From Desulfobacteraceae bacterium (GTDB lineage: Bacteria > Desulfobacterota > Desulfobacteria > Desulfobacterales > Desulfobacteraceae): a DNA stretch of 9,712 nt. Below the pieces are notes generated by a model, which saw nothing but the letters and a program-made list of their open reading frames with translations, searched no databases and was not told the origin of the DNA. Made by a program: the position numbers and the translations under genes. Every line of letters begins with the position of its first letter. Position 1 is the first letter of the stretch. Shown piece by piece: positions 120-7,881 of the stretch. The DNA is taken from the NCBI GenBank assembly GCA_003354055.1, contig PIVQ01000233.1, forward strand, positions 1 through 9,712, written 5' to 3'.

Positions 120-638
120 GTGTTTGGTGCATTGGTTGGCGGTTTCATTTCAACCCTGCTCACCCGTGAGCACAAAATATCAACTTTTCGTCAAGAGTGG
201 ATTAATAACGTTCGAGAAGTACTTTCAGAAATTCTTACCCAAGGCGAGATTTATGTCGGTGTTGCATATCAAGATAATGAAGAAGCATACCGGGAAAAAG
301 TGAAATTGATTGAAGTAATTTACAAAGCTAAATTATTTCTAAATCGCAATGAAGATCTATCAAAGACACTGATTAAAAAGATTGAAACTATTCCAGAAGA
401 TTATTTTGGAAAAAGAGGAAAGAAACTTGAGTATGCTAATTTAAAAAAGGAACTTTCTATTCTCATGCAGGATCTGCTTAAAGAAGAATGGAAACGTGTC
501 CGTGATGGCGAGCTAATATGGAAGGCAAATAAATGTATTAGTGAAAAAGGTTGGCCTCAGTGGGCGATGCTTTCGAGGCTAAAGCTAACCATTGCAGTTG
601 TACTATTTTTTATTGCCGTTTTATTTGGAATGTTTTGA
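120..638 (+). CDS. small two-pass membrane protein of unknown function
   Basis: 172 residues from a GTG start. The in-frame TAG at 111-113 rules out anything much longer, and GGGGGTAGG just upstream is the only RBS-like sequence. Residues 3-15 (GALVGGFISTLLT) form a short hydrophobic segment, followed by a basic stretch containing FRQEWINNVREVLSEI. The middle is a charged, helical cytoplasmic domain, and residues 152-171 form a strong C-terminal TM helix. The ‘FRQxWI…LR’ phrase after a first TM helix recurs in small uncharacterised bacterial membrane proteins known to me; those usually have a longer hydrophobic N-terminus, so this copy may be slightly N-truncated. Its TGA stop (636-638) is the first three bases of the junction repeat. 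Function unknown. Confidence 0.7.
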   Translation: MFGALVGGFISTLLTREHKISTFRQEWINNVREVLSEILTQGEIYVGVAYQDNEEAYREKVKLIEVIYKAKLFLNRNEDLSKTLIKKIETIPEDYFGKRGKKLEYANLKKELSILMQDLLKEEWKRVRDGELIWKANKCISEKGWPQWAMLSRLKLTIAVVLFFIAVLFGMF

Positions 639-653
639 AACAGAATAGGGGAC
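636..653 (+). repeat. junction repeat copy, 17/18 to consensus
   Basis: TGAAACAGAATAGGGGAC. Here the repeat’s own TGA is the upstream stop codon. AGGGGA precedes the next ATG (661) by 8 nt. Confidence 0.9.
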
Positions 654-660
654 TTTCTGC

Positions 661-1176
661 ATGTCGAACAAAGAGAATATAACAGCCTATCATCAACTGG
701 GCCAATTCATAGCGTATTTTCAAATGGCAGAAAATGAGATTAGCGAAATTATTCAGTTTCTCACCAAGGGGACAGACCATGAAATGGTTCAAATACTTAT
801 CAATGGTTTAGAGTATTCCAAGCGATTAGATACAGCAGATGTAATGTTCGCAAGATTCATAGACCTGTATCGAAGTATAGATGATGCTGAAAAAGCAGAT
901 TTTCATAAACTAATTGTTGATCTTAAAAAACTTGGAACTCGTCGGAATCAATTAGTCCATTCAAATTACATCCCATGGTACAATGTTGATGGTCTTAAGG
1001 GCTTAATTAGAGAGCATTCAGCATTGAGAGGGAGTAAAGGCTGTTTAGAAAAAACCTAAGAAACGATTCTATCAGAAGATTTAACGTCGGACATAGAGCA
1101 AGTTGTTTCTATCTTCGAAAGAATTGATGTATTTCGGAAAAAAATTATCAAATGGAAACGTCCCGAACCAGAATAA
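661..1176 (+). pseudogene. HEPN-like protein gene interrupted by an in-frame stop
   Basis: The intact part is 132 residues (661-1059) ending in TAA at 1057-1059. The same frame continues after that codon for another 38 codons without interruption (ETILSEDLTSDIEQ… to …KWKRPEPE) and ends at TAA 1174-1176, exactly inside a junction-repeat copy like its neighbours. I therefore read 1057 as a nonsense mutation in a ~171-residue gene; a sequencing error is the alternative. Residues 95-100 (RNQLVH) fit the Rx4H signature of HEPN domains (R95, H100), within an all-helical sequence. HEPN proteins are often RNA-cleaving toxins or nucleotide-binding partners, but with only this motif the assignment is tentative. 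The active motif lies before the premature stop, so the short form might still fold. Confidence 0.65.
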
Positions 1177-1223
1177 GGAACCATTGAAACAGAATAAGGA
1201 ACCATTGAAACAGAATAGGGGAT
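1164..1223 (+). repeat. triple tandem junction repeat (21-bp period)
   Basis: Three copies in a row: 1164-1181 (13/18, stop TAA of the upstream frame), 1185-1202 (15/18) and 1206-1223 (18/18). The first two differ from the third at the RBS half (TAAGGAAC for TAGGGGAT). Units 1165-1185 and 1186-1206 are 21 bp long and differ at one base. The last copy supplies the RBS for the ATG at 1229. This looks like duplication of a junction with no gene in between. Confidence 0.9.
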
Positions 1224-1228
1224 AGCCT

Positions 1229-1441
1229 ATGTCTTTAGCGGGTATTATTACATTCATAGTTGTGGGTATGGTCATAGCGTTTACCTTCCTTCTCACATCC
1301 TCCCGAATCGTAAATTACATGTTAAAGGATTGGGAATTATGGACAGGCCCTTATTTTAGAGAAGTCCGGGATGGTAGAAACCCGAGTCAAACACTTGAAT
1401 ATGTCGGTCCTTCTGAACTTCTATCCAGGAATACTGATTAA
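1229..1441 (+). CDS. small single-pass membrane protein, unknown
   Basis: 70 residues. Residues 3-24 (LAGIITFIVVGMVIAFTFLL) form one N-terminal TM helix or uncleaved signal anchor. The rest is a short polar tail with several aromatic and charged residues. The start is fixed by AGGGGA of the junction repeat 6 nt before the ATG. I recognise no family. The antisense reading frame over 1081-1296 is ignored because it covers the tandem repeats. Confidence 0.65.
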   Translation: MSLAGIITFIVVGMVIAFTFLLTSSRIVNYMLKDWELWTGPYFREVRDGRNPSQTLEYVGPSELLSRNTD

Positions 1442-1448
1442 GCTGCTT

Positions 1449-1466
1449 TGAATAATATTAGGGAAT
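1449..1466 (+). repeat. degenerate junction repeat, 13/18
   Basis: TGAATAATATTAGGGAAT aligns without gaps to the consensus at 13 of 18 positions and lies 7 nt after the upstream stop. The next gene starts only at 1503 and uses a different RBS (CGGGGA, 1489-1494), so this copy looks decayed and displaced by extra sequence. Confidence 0.5.
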
Positions 1467-1502
1467 TTCACAGGGGCCAGAAAAAATCCGGGGAAATTTA
1501 AA

Positions 1503-2021
1503 ATGAATGATCAAATAATACCTATAATTGCATTAATAATATCCATTCTCGCTCTTGGTCTATCAATCTATTTTTGGCGGATGCAGTTTCGTCCTATAAT
1601 TACCGTCGCAGTAAAAACAGTTATTGCTGGGAATATTTCTACTGCTTTTAACTTACAAGTTAAGAACTCTGGGTCTTTACCGGCAAAAAACATAAAGCTA
1701 TCAACAAATCAATCAGAACTAAAAAAGTCATTTGGAGCAGATGCAACGGAAGAAAACAAAATTCGTTGGCTTGCTGCATTTAATAATGAGAATGTGATTC
1801 CAATTTTACAAAACGGAGAATCCATCGCATGTAGTTTCGGAATGTGTCAGGGACAAAACAAAGGGTTTTGGAAATATAACGCTATTTTTCAAATATCAAT
1901 CGACTACTATGGGTGGTTTGGCTATCGTTATGTTGACACACAAAATGTTAAAATTTTTGATTCTGATTCCTTCACTGGCTTTCAGTGGGAGAACCGCCGG
2001 GATGGTAATCAGCAAAATTGA
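1503..2021 (+). CDS. membrane-anchored protein of unknown function with β-rich soluble domain
   Basis: 172 residues. Residues 5-25 (IIPIIALIISILALGLSIYF) are a single N-terminal TM anchor, followed by WRMQFRPIITVAVKT. The remainder is β-strand-like with conserved-looking features: LQVKNSGSLPAKNI (an immunoglobulin-like or CARDB-like strand pair), then IPILQNGESIACSFG, then YYGWFGYRYVDTQ and FDSDSFTGFQW. This combination matches an uncharacterised bacterial family that I recognise by sequence style but cannot name. RBS CGGGGA lies 8 nt upstream. It ends 9 nt before the next junction repeat. It probably acts at the membrane; ligand and partner are unknown. Confidence 0.75.
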   Translation: MNDQIIPIIALIISILALGLSIYFWRMQFRPIITVAVKTVIAGNISTAFNLQVKNSGSLPAKNIKLSTNQSELKKSFGADATEENKIRWLAAFNNENVIPILQNGESIACSFGMCQGQNKGFWKYNAIFQISIDYYGWFGYRYVDTQNVKIFDSDSFTGFQWENRRDGNQQN

Positions 2022-2030
2022 ACATTAAAA

Positions 2031-2048
2031 TGAACCAGAATAGGGGAT
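2031..2048 (+). repeat. junction repeat copy, 17/18
   Basis: TGAACCAGAATAGGGGAT. The upstream gene has its own TGA at 2019-2021, so here the repeat is outside the coding frame. It provides the RBS 6-7 nt before ATG 2055. Confidence 0.9.
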
Positions 2049-2054
2049 AGCAGG

Positions 2055-2530
2055 ATGGAAAAACAGATTGAGAACCTTGAAATCATACACCCTAAAACCA
2101 GATGGGTGATTGATGAACTTGAGAAGCTGATCCGTGAATGGGAGGCTTGGCAATTAGAAGTTGAGAAAATAGAAGATCATCCTTATGACCCCAATACTCA
2201 ATTAGATGTGTTTAAGGATGGTAGAGATAGCATGAATAAGCATGAAATCCTTCAAGCAAAAACTCTAACATTTTTGAATAATAACATAAAAGGGCACGGT
2301 TTCATTCTTGGTTTTGATGGTAAACAATGTGATAGGAACGATCTGAGATAAAGATAAGAGTTGAACATAGATTGCAGAATTTGAGGATTTTAAGAGCCTC
2401 ATTAGATTATGCTTGGGTTCCTGAGTCTGTTTTAAAAAAGAAATCCAAGGAAGTTGCACAAAAAGTAGTTGATAAAGGCGTTGAAGCGGGATCGAAACTT
2501 TTACTGGAATTCATGAAATCACAAAGCTAA
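2055..2530 (+). pseudogene. uncharacterised soluble protein gene with a single-base frameshift
   Basis: Frame 2055-2351 gives 98 residues (…FDGKQCDRNDLR) and stops at TAA 2349-2351. A second frame then continues, from KIRVEHRLQNLRILRA to …LEFMKSQS, ending in TAA 2528-2530, one base before the next junction repeat. Adding one T at about 2350 turns AGATAAAG into AGA TTA AAG and gives a continuous ...DRNDLRLKIRVEHRL..., which reads as one natural protein of about 158 residues. So I annotate one frameshifted gene, not two. No signal peptide or TM helix; mostly helical, charged. Family unknown. A sequencing indel or a programmed shift cannot be excluded, though I see no slippery heptamer. Confidence 0.75.
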
Positions 2531-2531
2531 A

Positions 2532-2549
2532 TGAACAAAAATAGGGGAG
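2532..2549 (+). repeat. junction repeat copy, 14/18
   Basis: TGAACAAAAATAGGGGAG, directly after TAA 2528-2530. RBS for ATG 2556. Confidence 0.85.
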
Positions 2550-2555
2550 TGAAAA

Positions 2556-2795
2556 ATGATAACTATAAACGGTAAACCTTTCTCGGAAAGAACCTTTAAA
2601 GATGAAATTAAAAAGGAACTGCTTAGAGGTATTGCAGAAGACGTTAAAAAGCAGGTTCTTTCTGTGGTCACACCAGAGGAAGAGACACAATTAAAAATTG
2701 ATATTGTCGGAGAGGATTTAGAACATTTATCTGTAAATGTTGATGGTCCGGATGAAATCGTTGAAAAGGTTAAAAAAGTTTTTGGTGACGATTAA
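2556..2795 (+). CDS. small soluble αβ protein, unknown
   Basis: 79 residues, no TM segment. It begins MITINGKPFSERTF, followed by an amphipathic helix (residues 14-36, DEIKKELLRGIAEDVKKQVLSV region), then alternating β-strands with acidic loops (LKIDIVGEDLEHLSVNVDG) and a final helix EIVEKVKKVFGDD. The helix-strand-strand-helix pattern resembles a small immunity-protein-like or ferredoxin-like fold, but I recognise no named family. The start is fixed by the junction-repeat RBS. Its TAA stop lies 3 nt before the next repeat. Because adjacent genes include HEPN-like proteins, an antitoxin or inhibitor role is conceivable, but nothing in the sequence shows it. Confidence 0.75.
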   Translation: MITINGKPFSERTFKDEIKKELLRGIAEDVKKQVLSVVTPEEETQLKIDIVGEDLEHLSVNVDGPDEIVEKVKKVFGDD

Positions 2796-2798
2796 TTC

Positions 2799-2816
2799 TG
2801 AAACAGAATAGGGGAT
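2799..2816 (+). repeat. junction repeat copy, 18/18
   Basis: TGAAACAGAATAGGGGAT, identical to the copies ending at 1223 and 6907. Outside the upstream frame; RBS for ATG 2821. Confidence 0.92.
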
Positions 2817-2820
2817 AATA

Positions 2821-3501
2821 ATGAATGATGATGAGTTTAAAATGACTTTGGATAACGGGTACAAGGACCAAGATTATGACTTGTTAGGCGATATCTTGGG
2901 TTGGTTGGATGGCGAAAAGGAAGAACTGGAATGGGAGATTTCATATTCAGATCATCATACAATTTTCAATCAACACGTTTCAAGTATAGGTGAACTTTTA
3001 GACGTAGACATTGCCTCTCAATTCAATTTGCTTGTTATGCTATATGGCAATTTAGTGGCCTCAATAGAAGCGTATCTATCATCAAAATTCATTAACAAGG
3101 TCAATAATTCTGATAGATTCTTGCGCAAATTAGTTGAAACTGATCCAGACTTTTCAAAGATGAAGTTCACTCTAAACGAAATTTACACCCAAAAAGAAGA
3201 GTTAAACTTAAGAGTTGCTACTCATTTAAAAAATAAAATTTTTCATAAAATTATTGAAGTGAAAAAGATGTATAAGAATGTGTTTGATTATGATTTTGGT
3301 GACATCGAATGGCTAATTAAAGCCGTTGAATTACGACATGACTGTGTTCATCGAGCTGGGTATAATAAAGACGGTGATAAAGTAAAAATAGATTCTAAAA
3401 TGGTTCGAGATTTAATGGAATCAGCAACCCACTTCATTAAGGACATTGAATTTGAACTAAGTGAAAGTGGCGTTATTTACGGTGAAACTGAAACAAAATA
3501 G
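2821..3501 (+). CDS. HEPN-like protein, possible RNase
   Basis: 226 residues, all helical, no TM segment or signal peptide. Residues 172-177 (RHDCVH) give the Rx4H signature typical of the catalytic motif of HEPN domains, preceded by a helix (IEWLIKAVELR) and followed by RAGYNKDG, a common continuation in this superfamily. An upstream helix with NLVASIEAYLSSKF (77-90) fits the first half of the four-helix HEPN bundle. HEPN proteins include ribonuclease toxins and effectors in antiviral systems, so a defence or stress role is plausible, but no cognate antitoxin (MNT nucleotidyltransferase) is adjacent. Starts 5 nt after a perfect junction repeat; its last codons (GAA ACA AAA TAG) are the next repeat, so the protein ends in ETETK. 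It is much larger than most array members. Confidence 0.75.
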   Translation: MNDDEFKMTLDNGYKDQDYDLLGDILGWLDGEKEELEWEISYSDHHTIFNQHVSSIGELLDVDIASQFNLLVMLYGNLVASIEAYLSSKFINKVNNSDRFLRKLVETDPDFSKMKFTLNEIYTQKEELNLRVATHLKNKIFHKIIEVKKMYKNVFDYDFGDIEWLIKAVELRHDCVHRAGYNKDGDKVKIDSKMVRDLMESATHFIKDIEFELSESGVIYGETETK

Positions 3502-3506
3502 GGGAT
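3489..3506 (+). repeat. junction repeat copy, 17/18
   Basis: TGAAACAAAATAGGGGAT. The TAG is the upstream stop (3499-3501). RBS spacing to ATG 3510 is only 4 nt. Confidence 0.9.
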
Positions 3507-3509
3507 TCC

Positions 3510-3707
3510 ATGTACCGAATAGGCAACCAACAATTTCCCACATATGAAGATGCCCAGGCGTGGGTTGATCAAGGCAACGTGGGCGGCTGCTATGAGATTG
3601 TGCCTTTATCCTGGTGTGAAAGCTGCCGAGAATGGCGTGATACAGAAACCAAGGACATCGGTATTAAGGTGTGCCTGAAATGCAATGAACAGATTGAATC
3701 AGAATAA
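3510..3707 (+). CDS. small zinc-ribbon-like protein
   Basis: 65 residues. Two CxxC knuckles, WCESC (residues 35-39) and VCLKC (54-58), would form one zinc ribbon. The N-terminal half (MYRIGNQQFPTYEDAQAWVDQG) resembles a short β-hairpin followed by a helix. Starts 4 nt after the junction repeat and ends in QIESE-stop read from the next repeat. Zinc ribbons of this size usually bind nucleic acid or protein partners; nothing more specific is visible. The next two genes also encode CxxC proteins. Confidence 0.7.
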   Translation: MYRIGNQQFPTYEDAQAWVDQGNVGGCYEIVPLSWCESCREWRDTETKDIGIKVCLKCNEQIESE

Positions 3708-3714
3708 AAGGAAG
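3695..3714 (+). repeat. degenerate junction repeat
   Basis: TGAATCAGAATAAAAGGAAG. It keeps TGAA-CAGAATA but has TAA as the stop and an altered RBS half (AAAAGGAA). It serves ATG 3718, 4 nt downstream. Confidence 0.75.
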
Positions 3715-3717
3715 ATC

Positions 3718-3957
3718 ATGAAAACATTAAAACTATGTCGAGAGTATTTTGATGAGATCCATTATTGGAAATACTACGGCTCCTGCCCTAACTGTAATAG
3801 GCCCGACATAAAAGTCTATGATGACCCCATGAATAAGAATGTGAAAACTGCTGAATGCTTCTGTGGGCAATCTTTTGAATTAGAGTACAGGTACAATGAA
3901 CCAGATAGGGAAGTCTTCAAAAAGACTTCCACCCGCAGACTAAAAAATGGTTTTTAA
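3718..3957 (+). CDS. small CxxC zinc-binding protein with run-on C-terminus
   Basis: 79 residues. I place the start at 3718 because AAAAGGAA lies just before it; an in-frame ATG at 3685 lies inside the upstream gene and lacks an RBS. CPNC (residues 23-26) and CFCG (48-51) would form a zinc ribbon. The stretch reading YNEPDREVFKK crosses a junction repeat that has lost one base (3897-3914). With that base restored the protein would end NEPE-stop at about residue 63, like its neighbours. The last ~17 residues (up to RRLKNGF) and the 11-bp overlap with the next gene therefore look like a recent read-through. Function unknown. Confidence 0.7.
   Translation: MKTLKLCREYFDEIHYWKYYGSCPNCNRPDIKVYDDPMNKNVKTAECFCGQSFELEYRYNEPDREVFKKTSTRRLKNGF
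3897..3914 (+). repeat. junction repeat with a one-base deletion, read through
   Basis: TGAACCAGATAGGGAAGT matches TGAACCAGAATAGGGGA apart from one missing A in CAGAATA and an altered RBS half. The deletion shifts TAG out of frame, so the upstream gene continues for 17 codons. Confidence 0.65.
3909..3930. repeat. perfect 9-bp hairpin at a gene overlap
   Basis: GGAAGTCTT (3909-3917) and AAGACTTCC (3922-3930) form a perfect stem with a CAAA loop, 16 nt before ATG 3947. There is no T-run, so it is not a typical terminator. The twelve bases GGAAGTCTTCAA recur at 5256-5267 after another junction repeat, suggesting a small repetitive palindrome. Confidence 0.6.
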
Positions 3958-4552
3958 AAGCAAACACATATATACTTGTCCAAACTGCAAATCGGTTTTA
4001 GCCTCTGGCAACCTTATTGCCTTAAAAGCCGTTTGCCCTGATTGCAAAAACCTTGTTGAAATAAAAAACGCCTCCTTTCCTGATTTATCCTCAAAACCAT
4101 ACGGCAGAGATAATTTAAAAATTAGCCAAATGTGTGATAATCAGAAAGATGCTATCAAGGCTGATCATAGTCATTATTTCACTGGAATAGCCTGCCGCCA
4201 TGGTCATATTGCCCCCAGGACTAAAAAAGGTGACTGTAATGAATGCGCATGGCAACAACGGAAAAGATATGTTGGACAGAACCAGGAAAAGGTCCGTAAA
4301 ATTTATAGAGCAGCCAGTAACCGGGTACGGGCAGGAAGAAAAGAGCATCTAAAAATAACAGGCTATTCTCAAATTAAAACAGATGGATCGGTTCACGCTA
4401 TAACTGAGGCCGGGGATGCTTTTTGTGGTACAACGGCAATGGAAGGTTATTCAAATTTTACCGCCTTTCCGGTGGGAAAAATAATCAGTGGTGCAATCAC
4501 ATGTAAAAGGTGTCTTTCATCAATGAAAACTTGTGGAATTGAAACATTATAG
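3947..4552 (+). CDS. multi-zinc-finger protein with treble-clef/HNH-like core
   Basis: 201 residues. Residues 11-33 carry a zinc ribbon (C11/C14, C30/C33). Residues 83-127 read CRHGHIAPR…GDCNEC…KRYVGQNQEKVRK (C83, H87, C97, C100), the pattern of the short treble-clef region seen in phage HNH or endonuclease-VII-like proteins and their DNA-binding relatives. A C-terminal part (SVHAIT…AFCGTT…ITCKRCL, C160, C186, C189) looks like a third zinc site of the TCKRCL type. No complete HNH catalytic set is visible to me, so DNA binding is more certain than cleavage. The RBS is poor; translation may be coupled to the overlapping upstream gene, or its own RBS was lost when the repeat at 3897 decayed. Ends GIETL-TAG within the next repeat. 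Confidence 0.7.
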   Translation: MVFKSKHIYTCPNCKSVLASGNLIALKAVCPDCKNLVEIKNASFPDLSSKPYGRDNLKISQMCDNQKDAIKADHSHYFTGIACRHGHIAPRTKKGDCNECAWQQRKRYVGQNQEKVRKIYRAASNRVRAGRKEHLKITGYSQIKTDGSVHAITEAGDAFCGTTAMEGYSNFTAFPVGKIISGAITCKRCLSSMKTCGIETL

Positions 4553-4557
4553 GTGAC
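4540..4557 (+). repeat. junction repeat copy, 14/18
   Basis: TGAAACATTATAGGTGAC. TAG at 4550-4552 is the upstream stop. RBS AGGTGA is 4 nt before ATG 4561. Confidence 0.8.
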
Positions 4558-4560
4558 TTC

Positions 4561-4926
4561 ATGACTCTTAACTACTTTCAAATAGCAGGCTTGATGCTTG
4601 GTTCAGTGGTGTTCTACAAGGTCTTTGTTTACCTGATTTCAAGACTCGCTGATCCTAAGAACCATCCCCGGATACCCTCAACATCTGATGCCATAGATCG
4701 AATCGAAAAAGAGGGTTATGCGGCAATGTTTTATATGCCCGGTTCTAAGGTTCGGGAGAACTCCGAACTTTGGGATGCCCTGGAAGCACTGAAACATAAC
4801 GGCCATATAATCGTTGATCAGGACGGACACCTGGTGGGGCAAGTTGCCAAGGTCCGTATGGATGCCCAGGAGAAAGCTGAAATGTTTAGAGCAAAATTTA
4901 AAATCGTTAAAGATGAAACAGAATAG
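4561..4926 (+). CDS. single-pass membrane protein, unknown
   Basis: 121 residues. Residues 6-29 (FQIAGLMLGSVVFYKVFVYLISRL) form an N-terminal TM anchor. A Pro-rich linker (DPKNHPRIPSTSDA) leads to a cytoplasmic or periplasmic αβ domain: EGYAAMFYMPGSKVRENSELWDALEALKHNGHIIVDQDGHLVGQVAKV. The phrase KHNGHIIVDQDGHLVG is a β-hairpin typical of small regulatory domains, but I recognise no named family. It ends KDETE-TAG, encoded by the next junction repeat. The TM anchor suggests it works at the inner membrane. Confidence 0.7.
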   Translation: MTLNYFQIAGLMLGSVVFYKVFVYLISRLADPKNHPRIPSTSDAIDRIEKEGYAAMFYMPGSKVRENSELWDALEALKHNGHIIVDQDGHLVGQVAKVRMDAQEKAEMFRAKFKIVKDETE

Positions 4927-4931
4927 AGGAG
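4914..4931 (+). repeat. junction repeat copy, 16/18
   Basis: TGAAACAGAATAGAGGAG. TAG at 4924-4926 is the upstream stop; GAGGAG gives a stronger Shine-Dalgarno 5 nt before ATG 4936. Confidence 0.9.
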
Positions 4932-4935
4932 TGTT

Positions 4936-5214
4936 ATGGATAATATATTAAATTTTCCTTCGAAATCTATTCAAGATTGGCAAGCAATTAAGAAAACAAT
5001 TAAGCAATATTTAGAAAGTGCTGGTGAATCTGAAGCGTTGATGAAAAAAGTTTTAGAACGGATGAAACCGGTAATAGAAGAATTTTCATATGAATTTGAA
5101 ATTCCGTCTAATTTATCACCTGATTTAATAATTGAACTACAAAAGCATACATCCAAACTTATTCATAGTAGATTGGTTGTTGAAATTGAGTTAGCAAAAG
5201 CTTTAGGTTATTAA
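4936..5214 (+). CDS. small helical soluble protein, unknown
   Basis: 92 residues, no TM segment. Predominantly helical: IQDWQAIKKTIKQYLESAG, then EALMKKVLERMKPVIEEFSYEFEI, then a long C-terminal helix (SPDLIIELQKHTSKLIHSRLVVEIELAKALG). The core phrase RMKPVIEEFSYEFEIPSNLSPD resembles an uncharacterised family of ~90-120-residue bacterial proteins with a central …F.FEF…P..L… strand; I cannot name it. The stop TAA lies two bases before the next repeat. Strikingly AT-rich compared with the HAD gene downstream. This is the last member before the first regulatory module. Confidence 0.7.
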   Translation: MDNILNFPSKSIQDWQAIKKTIKQYLESAGESEALMKKVLERMKPVIEEFSYEFEIPSNLSPDLIIELQKHTSKLIHSRLVVEIELAKALGY

Positions 5215-5216
5215 AA

Positions 5217-5234
5217 TGAACCAAAATAGGGGAT
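5217..5234 (+). repeat. junction repeat copy, 16/18, not followed by a gene
   Basis: TGAACCAAAATAGGGGAT. The only well-kept copy followed by noncoding DNA (5235-5401), so its RBS half serves nothing visible here. Confidence 0.9.
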
Positions 5235-5249
5235 TTTACCGGGTGGGTC

Positions 5250-5261
5250 ACTTCCGGAAGT
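5250..5261. repeat. 12-bp perfect palindrome in the intergenic stretch
   Basis: ACTTCCGGAAGT, flanked by GTGG (5244-5247) and CCAC (5268-5271), which can extend a hairpin. The preceding CCGGGTGGG (5239-5247) recurs at 7140-7148 in the long inverted repeat that lies before the second regulatory module. No gene is visible in 5235-5331. Confidence 0.45.
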
Positions 5262-5331
5262 CTTCAACCACACGTCCAGATCTCCAGGTTCACAAAAATA
5301 TTCTATTTTGAACAAATACCCCCATTTTTTA

Positions 5332-5359
5332 TTGCGTTTATTATAATGTGTATTATAAT
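5332..5359 (+). promoter_or_regulatory. σ70-like promoter of the first RHH module
   Basis: TTGCGT (5332-5337), 16-nt spacer, TATAAT (5354-5359). Two more TATAAT sequences lie at 5342-5347 and 5378-5383, so the exact start is uncertain. The array genes upstream have no comparable promoter. Confidence 0.55.
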
Positions 5360-5371
5360 GATAATTATCAT
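5358..5371. promoter_or_regulatory. 14-bp perfect palindrome overlapping the -10 box, candidate operator
   Basis: ATGATAATTATCAT begins inside the -10 hexamer and lies 30 nt before the RHH gene. Position and symmetry suit autorepression by the RHH protein encoded immediately downstream. It also partly resembles a Fur box; no iron gene is nearby, so I prefer the autoregulation reading. Confidence 0.45.
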
Positions 5372-5401
5372 TTGGGTTATAATAATATAAAGGCGGTAAT
5401 C

Positions 5402-5665
5402 ATGACAACTCAGACAGCAAGAACAACGATCTTGACGACACCGGATTTTAAAGTGTGGCTTTCTCAAGAAGCCCAAAAAGAAGGTATTAGCGTATCAGAG
5501 TTAGTGCGTCAAAGATGCCAAGCCAAACCAAGCAAAGATGAAGCTTTATTGGCTATCCTAGTGGCAGAGGTTCGAGAAGCGACCATAAAAGCAAAAGTAT
5601 CATTAACCAAGGGTTTGAATGATGCAGAATCCGTTTTAGCAGAATTAAGGAGCGTTAAACAATGA
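5402..5665 (+). CDS. ribbon-helix-helix-type transcriptional regulator, module 1
   Basis: 87 residues from ATG 5402, chosen for AAGGCGG at 5390-5396; an in-frame ATG at 5348 lies inside the promoter. Residues 7-40 fit an RHH fold: β-strand RTTILTTPDF, helix FKVWLSQEAQKEG, turn ISVSELVRQRC. The rest (residues 44-85) is a long helix of coiled-coil character. RHH proteins bind operator DNA as dimers and commonly autoregulate toxin-antitoxin or plasmid-maintenance operons. It overlaps the next gene by 4 nt (ATGA), so the two are translationally coupled. The gene at 7414 is a divergent paralog with the same two-part layout (compare EALLAILVAEVREA with KELLALAHSKVKEA). Confidence 0.7.
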   Translation: MTTQTARTTILTTPDFKVWLSQEAQKEGISVSELVRQRCQAKPSKDEALLAILVAEVREATIKAKVSLTKGLNDAESVLAELRSVKQ

Positions 5666-5859
5666 GTGTGGTTAAAGATGCCGTTGCAGCCATGAAGGAG
5701 GTTTTAATTCTGTCTGAAAAAATTGACCAGGCCGGTAAAACCTTAACCGAAGTTTCAAAAGAACTCCGGGATCACGATAGGCGTATTGTTAGGTTAGAAA
5801 CATATGTTGAAATTGGACAGAATCAGCAACAACAGTTGCCAGGAAATGCACCAAAATAG
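5662..5859 (+). CDS. small coiled-coil protein, partner gene of RHH module 1
   Basis: 65 residues, highly charged and helical, heptad-like throughout (VVKDAVAAMKEVLILSEKIDQA…LTEVSKELRDHDRRIVRLET). The tail RIVRLETYVEIGQNQQQQLPGN is nearly repeated in the protein at 7696 (RVVRLETFVEIGERQQKQLSGN), so this tail is the conserved feature. RBS AAGGAG (5647-5652) lies inside the upstream gene. It ends GNAPK-TAG within a junction repeat, so the module has been joined to the array on its 3′ side. Function unknown; a partner of the RHH protein or a toxin/antitoxin-like component is possible. Confidence 0.7.
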   Translation: MSVVKDAVAAMKEVLILSEKIDQAGKTLTEVSKELRDHDRRIVRLETYVEIGQNQQQQLPGNAPK

Positions 5860-5864
5860 GGGAT
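5847..5864 (+). repeat. junction repeat copy, 15/18
   Basis: TGCACCAAAATAGGGGAT. TAG at 5857-5859 is the upstream stop; RBS for ATG 5871. It ties the RHH module to the next array gene. Confidence 0.88.
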
Positions 5865-5870
5865 AGGGAA

Positions 5871-6161
5871 ATGATTTTAGTTATTTTTGAATACCAAGGT
5901 GATCCCGTTGAAATTAGGCTTAAATATTCTGATAACCGAGATCAGTTTATCGTTTATGCAAGGTATTCCCCCCATGGTGGTCATGTGAATGGCTACAGTT
6001 ATGTTCTTGATAATGTATTTGAATTGAGCTTAAAAGATGCCGCCAAACTTGATGTTATTCAGCATTTAGCAGAAGCGGCTAAACAGCATGTTTTAGATGG
6101 CTCTTGGGAAAAATACGAAAAGGCTGTTGAAGAACTTAAAGCCAAGAATGAACCAAAATAG
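5871..6161 (+). CDS. small soluble αβ protein, unknown
   Basis: 96 residues, no TM segment. N-terminal β-strands (MILVIFEYQGDPVEIRLKYSDNRD, then QFIVYARYSPHGG) followed by helices (SLKDAAKLDVIQHLAEAAKQHVLDGSWEKYEKAVEELKAKN). I do not recognise a family. The start follows a junction-repeat RBS by 7 nt. The C-terminus KNEPK-TAG is read from the next junction repeat. The gene sits between module 1 and the HAD gene. Confidence 0.7.
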   Translation: MILVIFEYQGDPVEIRLKYSDNRDQFIVYARYSPHGGHVNGYSYVLDNVFELSLKDAAKLDVIQHLAEAAKQHVLDGSWEKYEKAVEELKAKNEPK

Positions 6162-6166
6162 GGGAG
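6149..6166 (+). repeat. junction repeat copy, 15/18
   Basis: TGAACCAAAATAGGGGAG. TAG 6159-6161 is the upstream stop. About 50 nt of noncoding DNA separate it from the HAD gene, so its RBS half is probably not used. Confidence 0.88.
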
Positions 6167-6219
6167 ACTTGGCCCCGGTTTAGATAACTGTTCAATTTTT
6201 ATCAAGGAATAAATGAAAA

Positions 6220-6912
6220 GTGATAATGAATACGGTTCTTTTTGATTTTGACGGGGTAATTGCAGATTCCCTGGATTATGCCTTCAACTGGTTCGGCTAT
6301 GCTGCAGACAAGTTTGGGGTGGATCTGCCTTTTGAGGATCTGGAAGGCTTCAGAGATTCCTTTATCGAGCCTTTCCCCGAATTCTATAAATGGCTGGGGT
6401 TTAACTGGGAAGATAACAGAGAGGCGATCTATGACGCCTATATAGATTATCATACCGCCAATCCGGTGGGCCTGGTCGACGGCATTGAGGTGGTGATTTC
6501 GGAGTTAGGCCGGAAGCCAGGAGTTAAGCTGGGGATTGTTTCATCCAATGACCAGCAGGTTTTGGAAGACAACCTCGCCCATCACGGTCTTGCCGGTGAT
6601 TTCGATGTGGTGATCGGCGTCAATAAAGATCTTTCCATTCCATTGAAGCCAAATCCTACGTCTCTGCTCATGGCCCTCTCCCAACTCGGGTCGTCCCCTT
6701 CTGAATCCGTCTACATCGGAGACCAGCCCAGTGACATTCTCACGGCTCAGAATGCGGGAAAAAAAGCTCGAAACGGATCTCTGCGCACCATCGGCGTCAC
6801 CACAGGGTTTGCCACCCGTTCCCGACTAGAAGACGCCTCTCCGAGACCGGATCACATTGTTGACCACCCCATTGAGATTCTAACGGCATTGAAACAGAAT
6901 AGGGGATATTAG
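6220..6912 (+). CDS. HAD-superfamily hydrolase, phosphoglycolate-phosphatase-like
   Basis: 230 residues from GTG 6220 (AAGGAA 10 nt upstream) or 228 from ATG 6226. All four HAD motifs are visible: DFDG nucleophile motif (D9, D11), VSSND (S108-S109), the lysine in LKPNP (K143), and GDQPSD (D168, D172). A helical C1-type cap lies between motifs I and II (residues 17-85). Such enzymes hydrolyse small phosphate esters in the cytoplasm (phosphoglycolate, sugar or nucleoside phosphates); the substrate cannot be read from sequence. It is clearly more GC-rich than the array genes around it. Its end is unusual: the natural C-terminus (HPIEILTAL) runs into a junction repeat in another phase, adding KQNRGY before TAG 6910-6912. 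Confidence 0.9.
   Translation: MIMNTVLFDFDGVIADSLDYAFNWFGYAADKFGVDLPFEDLEGFRDSFIEPFPEFYKWLGFNWEDNREAIYDAYIDYHTANPVGLVDGIEVVISELGRKPGVKLGIVSSNDQQVLEDNLAHHGLAGDFDVVIGVNKDLSIPLKPNPTSLLMALSQLGSSPSESVYIGDQPSDILTAQNAGKKARNGSLRTIGVTTGFATRSRLEDASPRPDHIVDHPIEILTALKQNRGY
6890..6907 (+). repeat. junction repeat copy, 18/18, translated in another frame
   Basis: TGAAACAGAATAGGGGAT. The HAD frame reads it as LKQNRG without stopping. RBS 7-8 nt before ATG 6914. Confidence 0.92.
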
Positions 6913-6913
6913 A

Positions 6914-7084
6914 ATGAAAAAATTAGTAATTATATTGCTGATAGTTATTGGCGCTATAAAGTTTGTTGAACCTGTAAATAATTGGGCACGAGGCCATCTT
7001 CCTGAAGAAATTCTGGAGATAATTGGTGAGAAACCAAAGAATTTATTAGAAAAAGTAGGTGACCTTGTTATTCCTAAATCTTAG
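6914..7084 (+). CDS. 56-residue protein with N-terminal membrane anchor
   Basis: Encodes MKKLVIILLIVIGAIKFVEP… to …VIPKS, 56 residues. Residues 3-18 form a strongly hydrophobic helix after two lysines, fitting a signal anchor. The rest (NNWARGHLPEEILEIIGEKPKNLLEKVGDLV) is amphipathic-helical and probably periplasmic or membrane-associated. The start is supported by the junction-repeat RBS AGGGGAT 7 nt upstream. It is the last array gene, and no repeat follows its TAG (7082-7084). The family is not recognised. Coding potential is supported by its position, RBS and sensible hydrophobic pattern. Confidence 0.65.
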   Translation: MKKLVIILLIVIGAIKFVEPVNNWARGHLPEEILEIIGEKPKNLLEKVGDLVIPKS

Positions 7085-7127: not shown

Positions 7128-7318
7128 AACCGGGTAGGTCCGGGTGGGATGTCCGAGCCATTAGATTGCAATTTTTTAGCTGTTCTTAATGAAGCGTAGT
7201 CAAAAGCCGTGTTGTTTGAGAACCCACTGGATCGCAGTTTCACGGCTTTTTACGGAGCGAATTTAGAACAGCTTAAAATTGTTCGATCAGGCCGGACGTC
7301 TCAGCCGGACCGGCGGTT
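7128..7318. repeat. 191-bp long imperfect inverted repeat
   Basis: Three nested pairings share one axis. The outer arm 7128-7159 (AACCGGG…GTCCGAGCC) pairs with 7290-7318, with GGTCCGG-TG-GA-GTCCG matching apart from single mismatches. The middle arm CAATTTTTTAGCTGTTCT (7169-7186) pairs with 7265-7281, including a perfect 9-bp AGCTGTTCT/AGAACAGCT. The inner arm AAAAGCCGTG (7202-7211) pairs with CACGGCTTTT (7241-7250). The loop is 29 nt. No gene is visible in 7085-7353. It could be a folded recombination site, a MITE-like element without an obvious target duplication, or a structured RNA or terminator (inner stem plus T-run). Confidence 0.8.
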
Positions 7319-7413: not shown

Positions 7414-7695
7414 ATGCAGACACAGTCAGAATCCTTAGTAAGAAAACAGTTTTTCATTTCCCCTGAAAATGTGGATAAACTTGAGAAGTTGACCTCAAAA
7501 ATGAAGGGGGTTTCTGCTGCAAAAATAGTAAGGGACGCTATTGATGCTTATGATCCAGATGGTAACCAGACCGAAGAAAAAGAGTTACTTGCCCTGGCTC
7601 ATTCAAAGGTTAAAGAGGCTTTGGAAGCCACCGAACGAGCAAACCAAAAGATGGATGATTGTCTGAACACTCTTTCAAAACGGGAGGGGTCTTAA
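7414..7695 (+). CDS. ribbon-helix-helix-type transcriptional regulator, module 2
   Basis: 93 residues. RBS AGGAG (7402-7406) lies 7 nt before ATG. Residues 9-44 fit RHH: β-strand VRKQFFISPE, helix NVDKLEKLTSKMKG, turn VSAAKIVRDAIDAY. A long C-terminal helix (EEKELLALAHSKVKEALEATERANQKMDDCLNTL) follows, as in its paralog at 5402, although sequence identity is modest. Probably a DNA-binding dimer that represses its own promoter. The stop TAA abuts the ATG of the next gene. The operon lies outside the junction-repeat array and uses an ordinary Shine-Dalgarno. Confidence 0.7.
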   Translation: MQTQSESLVRKQFFISPENVDKLEKLTSKMKGVSAAKIVRDAIDAYDPDGNQTEEKELLALAHSKVKEALEATERANQKMDDCLNTLSKREGS

Positions 7696-7881
7696 ATGCC
7701 CGGCCTGGCTGAATTATTGATGGATATCATTAAATTGACGGATTCTGTAAAAACTCTGGATGCCAAAACTGAAAAATTGTCTGAACGGACCATCGATATA
7801 GATAAAAGGGTGGTCCGGCTGGAAACCTTTGTCGAAATAGGAGAGAGACAGCAAAAACAATTATCAGGGAACAAGGAGTAG
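7696..7881 (+). CDS. small coiled-coil protein, partner gene of RHH module 2
   Basis: 61 residues, helical and charged with regular hydrophobic spacing (LAELLMDIIKLTDSVKTLDAKTEKLSERTIDIDK). The C-terminal RVVRLETFVEIGERQQKQLSGN matches the protein at 5662, while the N-terminal halves differ. RBS GGGAGGGG (7682-7689) lies in the end of the upstream gene; the start codon follows the upstream stop directly. The terminal GGGAACAAGGAGTAGGGAG faintly recalls the junction repeat but is too diverged to count. Function unknown; probable partner of the RHH protein. Confidence 0.7.
   Translation: MPGLAELLMDIIKLTDSVKTLDAKTEKLSERTIDIDKRVVRLETFVEIGERQQKQLSGNKE

Follow-up and report, generated by a model that had tools for sequence, protein, structure and literature searches.

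How do small genes, most of them orphans, come to lie in tandem on one strand with the same short repeat at nearly every junction? The question is raised by a 9,712-nucleotide (nt) stretch of DNA from a Desulfobacteraceae bacterium (contig PIVQ01000233.1; the window), for which an earlier note, made from the letters alone, had suggested that genes captured or shuffled by some process are joined at the repeat. That proposal is supported by the analysis reported here: recombinases head related arrays, duplicated and shared cassettes end at the motif, and the arm within the repeat matches the core site of such a recombinase. We consider it likely that a short tyrosine recombinase (YR), about 200 amino acids (aa) in length, assembled the cassette array of which the window holds a part. 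What can be seen directly in the sequences is the motif, its array-specific location, recombinases or their relics at the heads of arrays in relatives, the core-site match in two records, a joint-to-joint duplication, and shared cassettes in different surroundings. Binding of the repeat by the recombinase, strand exchange, the position of the crossover, the site of insertion, present activity, and the part of such an enzyme in the window array itself are what we would infer from these.

The pattern TGAAMCARAATAGGGGAK, with up to three mismatches, matches the window 12 times, always on the plus strand, against a mean of 0.14 and a maximum of 2 in 200 dinucleotide shuffles, so that a repeat at the junctions of the array is beyond chance. 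A weight matrix, built partly from the window copies themselves, picks up every coordinate previously given for the repeat except 3897, which is seen solely as a 14-mer with three mismatches. The conserved unit, which we call the joint, had been put at about 18 nt; comparison of nine arrays gives 17 nt. The three copies that are identical over 18 nt are those at 1206, 2799 and 6890. Exact consensus joints lie at 636-652, 2799-2815 and 6890-6906, the last of these being the final copy seen, with further joints at 2031-2047, 2532-2548, 3489-3505, 4914-4930, 5217-5233, 5847-5863 and 6149-6165. The joint at 4540-4556 has three mismatches and an intermediate matrix score (14.8), those at 1449-1465 and 3695-3711 are weak and decayed (9.2 and 9.3), and the rest score 20-30. 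No copy was found on the reverse strand or past 6907 at the thresholds used. Three joints stand back to back at a spacing of 21 nt with no gene between them (1164-1180, 1185-1201 and 1206-1222), and geneless back-to-back joints are also seen in one other array (L157, 5130-5162).

Arrays with the window motif occur in four Desulfobacteraceae, designated G001 (locus L114), G002 (L113), G003 (L110) and Desulfospira joergensenii (G004, L108), and strong matches are confined to one locus in each. Among 86 genomes of the family a match with at most one mismatch was present in 40, and close clusters in these four only (4/86); a reversed-pattern control in the same search gave 0 to 2 matches per strand and genome. 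The motif is thus not the general ribosome-binding site (RBS) of these organisms, as the earlier note had maintained on the grounds that genes outside the array carry ordinary Shine-Dalgarno (SD) sequences, a feature judged by eye. Neither the motif before most genes nor a gene order conserved across distant species was found. A motif scan of genome contigs returned 75 stretches, ten of which held at least two matches at three mismatches on local rescan; from the 75 we examined L008, L038, L041 and L061 as arrays and L034, L043 and L056 as stretches with one match. L043 (G003:C282) proved to be a single site outside any array, and L056 showed no array by eye.

Related arrays do begin with a recombinase, which the earlier note had suggested looking for. 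An open YR gene for about 200 aa heads the arrays of genome G018, of an Aquimarina plasmid, of the flavobacterial genome G783 and of the IMG/VR records L155 and L156; broken YR genes head those of G002, G003 and G079 and, in G005, one cassette with one site. G018 was found by searching the 86 genomes with the N-terminal YR piece of G002, and its 209-aa YR is identical to a protein entry named Desulfobacter hydrogenophilus, the name that we use for it; an array with a joint of its own, TGAATCAAAATARGGAG, lies directly behind. In G002 a frameshifted YR is directly upstream of the array, and YR relics are followed by the array in G003, by a MazEF cassette with an exact site at its end in G005, and by Phd/PIN and then sites in G079. 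The Aquimarina, G783 and L155/L156 arrays likewise have joint sequences of their own. A search of 389 genomes of the order with the YR gave 15 with a match, six of them in a short family (47-100% identity; G018, G002, G003, G005, G034 and G079) and nine at 30-39% identity, eight of these in frames of 309-430 aa. Sites lie behind the YR in five of the six short-family genomes, counting the single site of G005. In the phylum, the D. hydrogenophilus YR matched 2 of 395 genomes, G175 (a partial frame, with no array by eye in its region) and G194 (31%). Toxin-antitoxin (TA) or DNA-binding modules often adjoin the YR: G002 and G005 have MazEF as their first module, G079 has Phd/PIN, and G018 and G003 have an RHH-type gene or pair (from sub-threshold Pfam matches or by eye); a MazE/PIN pair precedes the G004 array. 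Another broken YR fragment, 77% identical over 35 aa to the G002 piece, was noticed elsewhere in G003 (G003:C154; L126, 1487-1683).

The D. hydrogenophilus YR belongs to Pfam Phage_integrase (PF00589, E 8.7e-16). Residues R52, K77/K78, R157, H182 and Y191 are invariant in all 31 rows of an alignment of the family, in which K154 occupies the usual first-His position; we take these to be the catalytic positions. The best PDB matches of an AlphaFold model (pLDDT 84, with the tyrosine segment 185-195 modelled poorly) are XerA and XerH. Xer models align to the YR over the catalytic part only, and the protein is without an N-terminal core-binding domain; YR classes are those set out in sections of PMC8138268. 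A protein search gave 392 relatives at E <=1e-20, with Thiodiazotropha, Shewanella, Methylophaga and Desulforhopalus among the best 120 of them.

These properties bear on the idea that the arrays are a diverged true integron whose attC is unusually short or unrecognised. The functional parallel is close, with a YR, tandem same-strand small cassettes, TA modules and orphan content. However, the integron integrase model TIGR02249 has a cut-off of 265 bits, whereas the YR of about 200 aa reaches 39 (33-57 among the six YRs scanned), and only its catalytic part aligns with Xer models. Furthermore, the next start codon lies 16-34 nt from the first base of the joint in 48 of the 55 joints with a start found (11 of all 66 had none), which leaves little room for an attC. 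We judge a diverged integron to be very unlikely. A system that handles cassettes as integrons do without being one, based on a short YR and a single-arm joint, accounts most simply for the observations.

Arrays behind YR relatives were scored by counts of a repeated 16-mer in 20 downstream regions, with three shuffles each. Junction arrays gave 11 against 3 in D. hydrogenophilus, 7 against 4-5 on the plasmid of Aquimarina sp. TRL1, 11 against 3-5 in G783 and 5 against 3 in L155; for L156, identical in DNA, one shuffle also reached 5. Sagittula, Paracoccus and Shewanella (L131) were one count over their shuffles and the remaining ten regions were not over them. Acetobacter and Komagataeibacter exceeded the shuffles through clustered iteron-like repeats, which were not taken as joints. 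Sixteen genomic control windows gave counts of 3-5 in 14 cases and of 10 and 8 in two.

The own joints of these arrays are also locally concentrated. Eight of 14 genome-wide matches to the D. hydrogenophilus joint (at most two mismatches) fall inside its array. Of 42 matches in G783, 14 are in the C20 array region and four in a second cluster, where four joints lie near a contig end (L215, G783:C27, 4465-8099) with no YR found nearby at E 1e-25. The array-bearing hosts are sulfate-reducing and marine bacteria. A viral origin was rejected: the window motif gave two single matches in IMG/VR, the flavobacterial pattern one and the D. hydrogenophilus pattern seven, each of the seven stretches holding its one match and no further copies. 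The L155 pattern matched 35 IMG/VR stretches; of the four that we looked at, L169 and L184 are the L155/L156 contigs themselves and L171 and L175 hold a repetitive gene. A phage search with the L156 YR gave eight records at about 25% identity.

What, then, would the recombinase recognise? In all nine arrays the joints are direct repeats, and there is no conservation outside the 17 nt. Conservation within the 17 nt is partly by construction, because sites were gathered by similarity to the consensus, but the flanks were unselected and their lack of conservation is not. The site set for L155, collected at a loose threshold of six mismatches, includes some chance sites, and that of G002 has three sites only. 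We read the joint as a putative 11-bp recombinase arm (TGAAACARAAT) followed by a 6-bp crossover region (AGGGGA), a division suggested by the geometry of core sites before YR genes; in the window the exact joint at 636-652 divides into 11-nt arm and 6-nt spacer in this way. Directly before the D. hydrogenophilus YR gene lies an inverted-repeat core site, TGAATCAAAAC-tttaga-CTTTTGATTCA, and plasmids of Sedimenticola and Shewanella carry two such sites each. When the array-arm matrix of D. hydrogenophilus was run over 34,780 positions outside its array, both core-site arms ranked first and second. With the window matrix, the four core-site arms of the Sedimenticola plasmid ranked third to sixth of 21,650.

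The core sites also lend themselves to a different explanation, in which short repeats let the arrays grow by ordinary RecA recombination or slippage, the YR being only a plasmid-derived resolvase that happened to land nearby. Plasmids carry many of the YR relatives, and in several cases there is a pair of inverted-repeat core sites but no array, the arrangement expected of a dimer resolvase; the back-to-back joints at 1164-1222 are compatible with slippage. Against this, YRs beside arrays recur in separate lineages with different joint sequences, and the array arm and core-site arm are identical. In addition, 17 bp is a short homology for RecA. We regard this explanation as unlikely.

The joint is at the same time a translational boundary. 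Two frames are closed within it, one by TGA at +0 and one by TAG at +10. In the window, G001-G004 and D. hydrogenophilus, the longest frame entering the joint, in some cases a short one, stops at one of these positions for 40 of 46 joints. In the Aquimarina and G783 arrays it stops at +6 or +10 in 11 of 20, and in Flavobacteriaceae an ATG often follows at +16. The repeat could accordingly be a start-associated translational or regulatory element under selection and no recombination site, like the start-associated sequence (SAS) of Cluster K mycobacteriophages. The joint indeed overlaps the stop and the RBS a few nt before starts, and Cluster K phages have a similar 13-bp element containing AGGAG (as given in part of PMC3203893), a short asymmetric repeat that lies over the RBS at many gene starts, at times with an upstream stop. 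However, the spacer is SD-like only in Desulfobacteraceae; it is conserved as AACCCG in L155, where a separate AGGA-like stretch is seen by eye further on, and as AAACGA in Flavobacteriaceae, so that translation alone does not explain its conservation. Unlike the Cluster K element, moreover, the arrays described here come with a recombinase at the head of several of them, with an arm that matches the YR core site in D. hydrogenophilus, and with a joint-to-joint duplication and shared cassettes whose homology stops at the joint. A purely translational role is improbable, if the least so of the alternatives that we consider.

The clearest sign of cassette movement is found in G001, where a gene for 133 aa occurs twice in one array. 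The two copies are identical at 393 of 400 nt, the match runs from joint to joint with differing flanks, and indel differences lie in the leader just past the upstream joint. Twelve loci were compared at E 1e-4, with within-locus pairs kept only for the window, G001 and D. hydrogenophilus. A MazEF cassette is common to G003 and G005 (81% over 658 bp), among different neighbours, the match ending within 1 nt of the joint in both and G003 having 3 extra nt at the joint; G003 and G079 share a cassette of 57 aa (70% aa identity). The remaining matches involved the YR itself, RHH-type copies within D. hydrogenophilus, repeats inside G001, a resolvase-like frame (G004/G079), one G003/G005 pair outside the arrays, and an N-terminal stretch common to G001 and G034. 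The last case concerns G034 (L214, 4676-6769), where a PfkB-like gene lies behind a YR relic and is similar over its first 150 aa to a TPR cassette of G001; this gene was rejected as a shared cassette because no joint is present. Comparison of L155 with L156 over 10.3 kb showed no difference, and hence no gain or loss. The loci are tandem arrays of cassettes in one orientation, with duplication and sharing pointing to mobility.

Another conceivable route of capture is reverse transcription of mRNA primed at the repeat, and the earlier note had named a reverse transcriptase (RT) among the partners to look for. Broken group II-type RT fragments, together with a transposase-like frame (by eye), do lie upstream of the G003 array (L110, 8263-12560). 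Inspection by eye of the other head regions that we read showed no RT, and the shared MazEF cassette extends upstream of its first gene, over DNA that could be absent from an mRNA copy. With only broken fragments near one array, an RT is not needed and was rejected as the driver; of all the alternatives this is the one that we find hardest to credit.

On the reading that we prefer, capture by the short YR, a cassette would consist of one small open reading frame, or a gene pair such as a TA module, together with a 17-nt joint, the right arm being largely unconstrained. The YR would exchange strands within the 6-bp region between two joints, whereby cassettes could be inserted, lost, duplicated or moved. 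In Desulfobacteraceae the joint would supply stop codons and an SD-like sequence, so that an inserted frame is closed and the next one opened.

Several observations weigh against this reading. Recombination itself was not observed, no empty joint facing a filled one was found between strains, and the 9,712 nt of the window contain no recombinase. The D. joergensenii array is without a YR match in the search of 389 genomes of the order, G034 has a YR relic and no sites behind it, and most of the tested plasmid relatives of the YR have no array. In a quick tree the array heads do not form one clade, and the four changes needed are the same as for shuffled labels. The site before the YR is not top-ranked by the array-arm matrix in L156, G783, Aquimarina or G002, and the Shewanella plasmids give only a weak, lower-ranked match with the D. 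hydrogenophilus matrix. Within D. hydrogenophilus the spacers differ (tttaga in the core site, ARGGAG in the array), for which reason cassettes are probably not inserted at this core site; no attI was identified. Symmetry of a right arm is at or below control at 6-nt spacing in eight of nine arrays; at 5 nt it is over control in seven of nine (0.30-0.45 against 0.24-0.30), an excess to which pairing of the conserved last base with the arm contributes.

Integrons are the textbook route by which bacteria collect and shuffle genes. They share with the arrays described here a tyrosine recombinase at the head, tandem same-strand small and mostly orphan genes, TA cassettes and recombinase-less clusters (integron properties as given in sections of PMC8618304). 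They differ in that the recombinase here is of about 200 aa, far under the IntI cut-off and without an N-terminal domain, and in that the 17-nt joint overlaps stop and start, in contrast to a folding attC. The pdif/dif modules of Acinetobacter plasmids, acted on by XerC/XerD, have core-site arms with a 6-bp spacer, as here, and identical spacers matter in them (as described in part of PMC13141974). They use full two-arm sites, C and D module configurations and the host XerCD, whereas the joints here are direct, have one recognisable arm and come with a dedicated YR. In place of inverted 28-bp dif sites with XerC and XerD arms we found one conserved arm in direct orientation. The short YRs of Shewanella, Sedimenticola and Rhodobacterales plasmids are relatives of the D. 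hydrogenophilus YR (40-59% identity) within one protein family and have inverted-repeat core sites before the gene, but no junction array was detected behind them. On balance we incline to see in these arrays a third, independently evolved capture platform beside integrons and dif modules, present in at least two phyla, with a YR reduced to the catalytic domain and a single-arm 17-bp joint whose crossover doubles as stop and start, so that a captured gene would be expressed at once in an operon. A search of the PMC literature, with bioRxiv and most subscription papers outside its coverage, gave no description of such a system among the matches listed. If this view is right, integron finders would probably miss the platform, given its other recombinase branch and 17-nt joint; a hidden pool of mobile orphan genes would be exposed, and a compact tool for stacking genes into operons would be at hand. 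It would also pose a testable question: by what mechanism can a recombinase work on a site in which a single arm is recognisable?

The cassettes of the window, all on the plus strand, begin with an orphan gene with a hydrophobic C-terminal stretch (120-638), whose TGA stop coincides with the first three bases of the 636 joint. An orphan at 661-1059 is followed by a small membrane orphan with a hydrophobic stretch (1229-1441) and a membrane orphan (1503-2021), both so assigned by eye. Next come orphans at 2055-2351, with a small open reading frame at 2372-2530 behind it, at 2556-2795, and at 2821-3501, which stops at the TAG at +10 of the 3489 joint. HEPN proteins had been suspected among these; 661-1059 matches no Pfam family and 2821-3501 only SIL1, below threshold. 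The three genes that had been called zinc ribbons (3510-3707, 3718-3957 and 3947-4552, the last stopping at the TAG of the 4540 joint) do have CxxC pairs, and sub-threshold Pfam matches for one of the three only. A membrane orphan by eye (4561-4926, stopping at the TAG of the 4914 joint) and an orphan (4936-5214) precede a two-gene cassette (5402-5859) between the joints at 5217 and 5847, made up of an RHH-type gene (sub-threshold NikA-like match) and a coiled-coil gene (by eye). An orphan at 5871-6161 stops at the TAG of the 6149 joint. The supposed phosphatase at 6226-6912 is a HAD hydrolase (E 1.2e-29), and the last cassette gene (6914-7084) encodes a 56-aa peptide with a hydrophobic stretch. 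Past the last joint lies a pair of an RHH-type gene (sub-threshold match) and a coiled-coil gene (by eye) at 7414-7881, homologous to the pair heading the G003 array (56% and 60% aa identity); its second gene (7696-7881) is resembled by that of the 5402-5859 cassette (69% over 26 aa). An Rfam scan of the window at gathering thresholds gave no match, PADLOC on ten window proteins gave one marginal match, and window DNA matched plasmids in a single 147-bp stretch.

Further features were noticed in the surroundings of the arrays. In G002 (L113, 1800-1930, minus strand) and G003 (L110, 13830-13945) the end of the YR is separated from the first module by an element of about 110 nt, noncoding and conserved, whose core pattern is present in these two only of the 86 family genomes. 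On the reverse strand of the D. hydrogenophilus locus (L124, about 11025-10990) a sigma-70-like promoter, TTGACT...TATAAT, was seen by eye between an RHH-type gene and the first joint, with a similar one after the second RHH-type copy. Ahead of the D. joergensenii array is a frame that by eye resembles a serine resolvase (L108, 14949-15500), and ahead of the G079 array is a fragment related to it (L213, 1955-2173). In the window, an inverted repeat of 18 nt (89%) with arms 70 nt apart lies at 7173-7278, directly past the last cassette.

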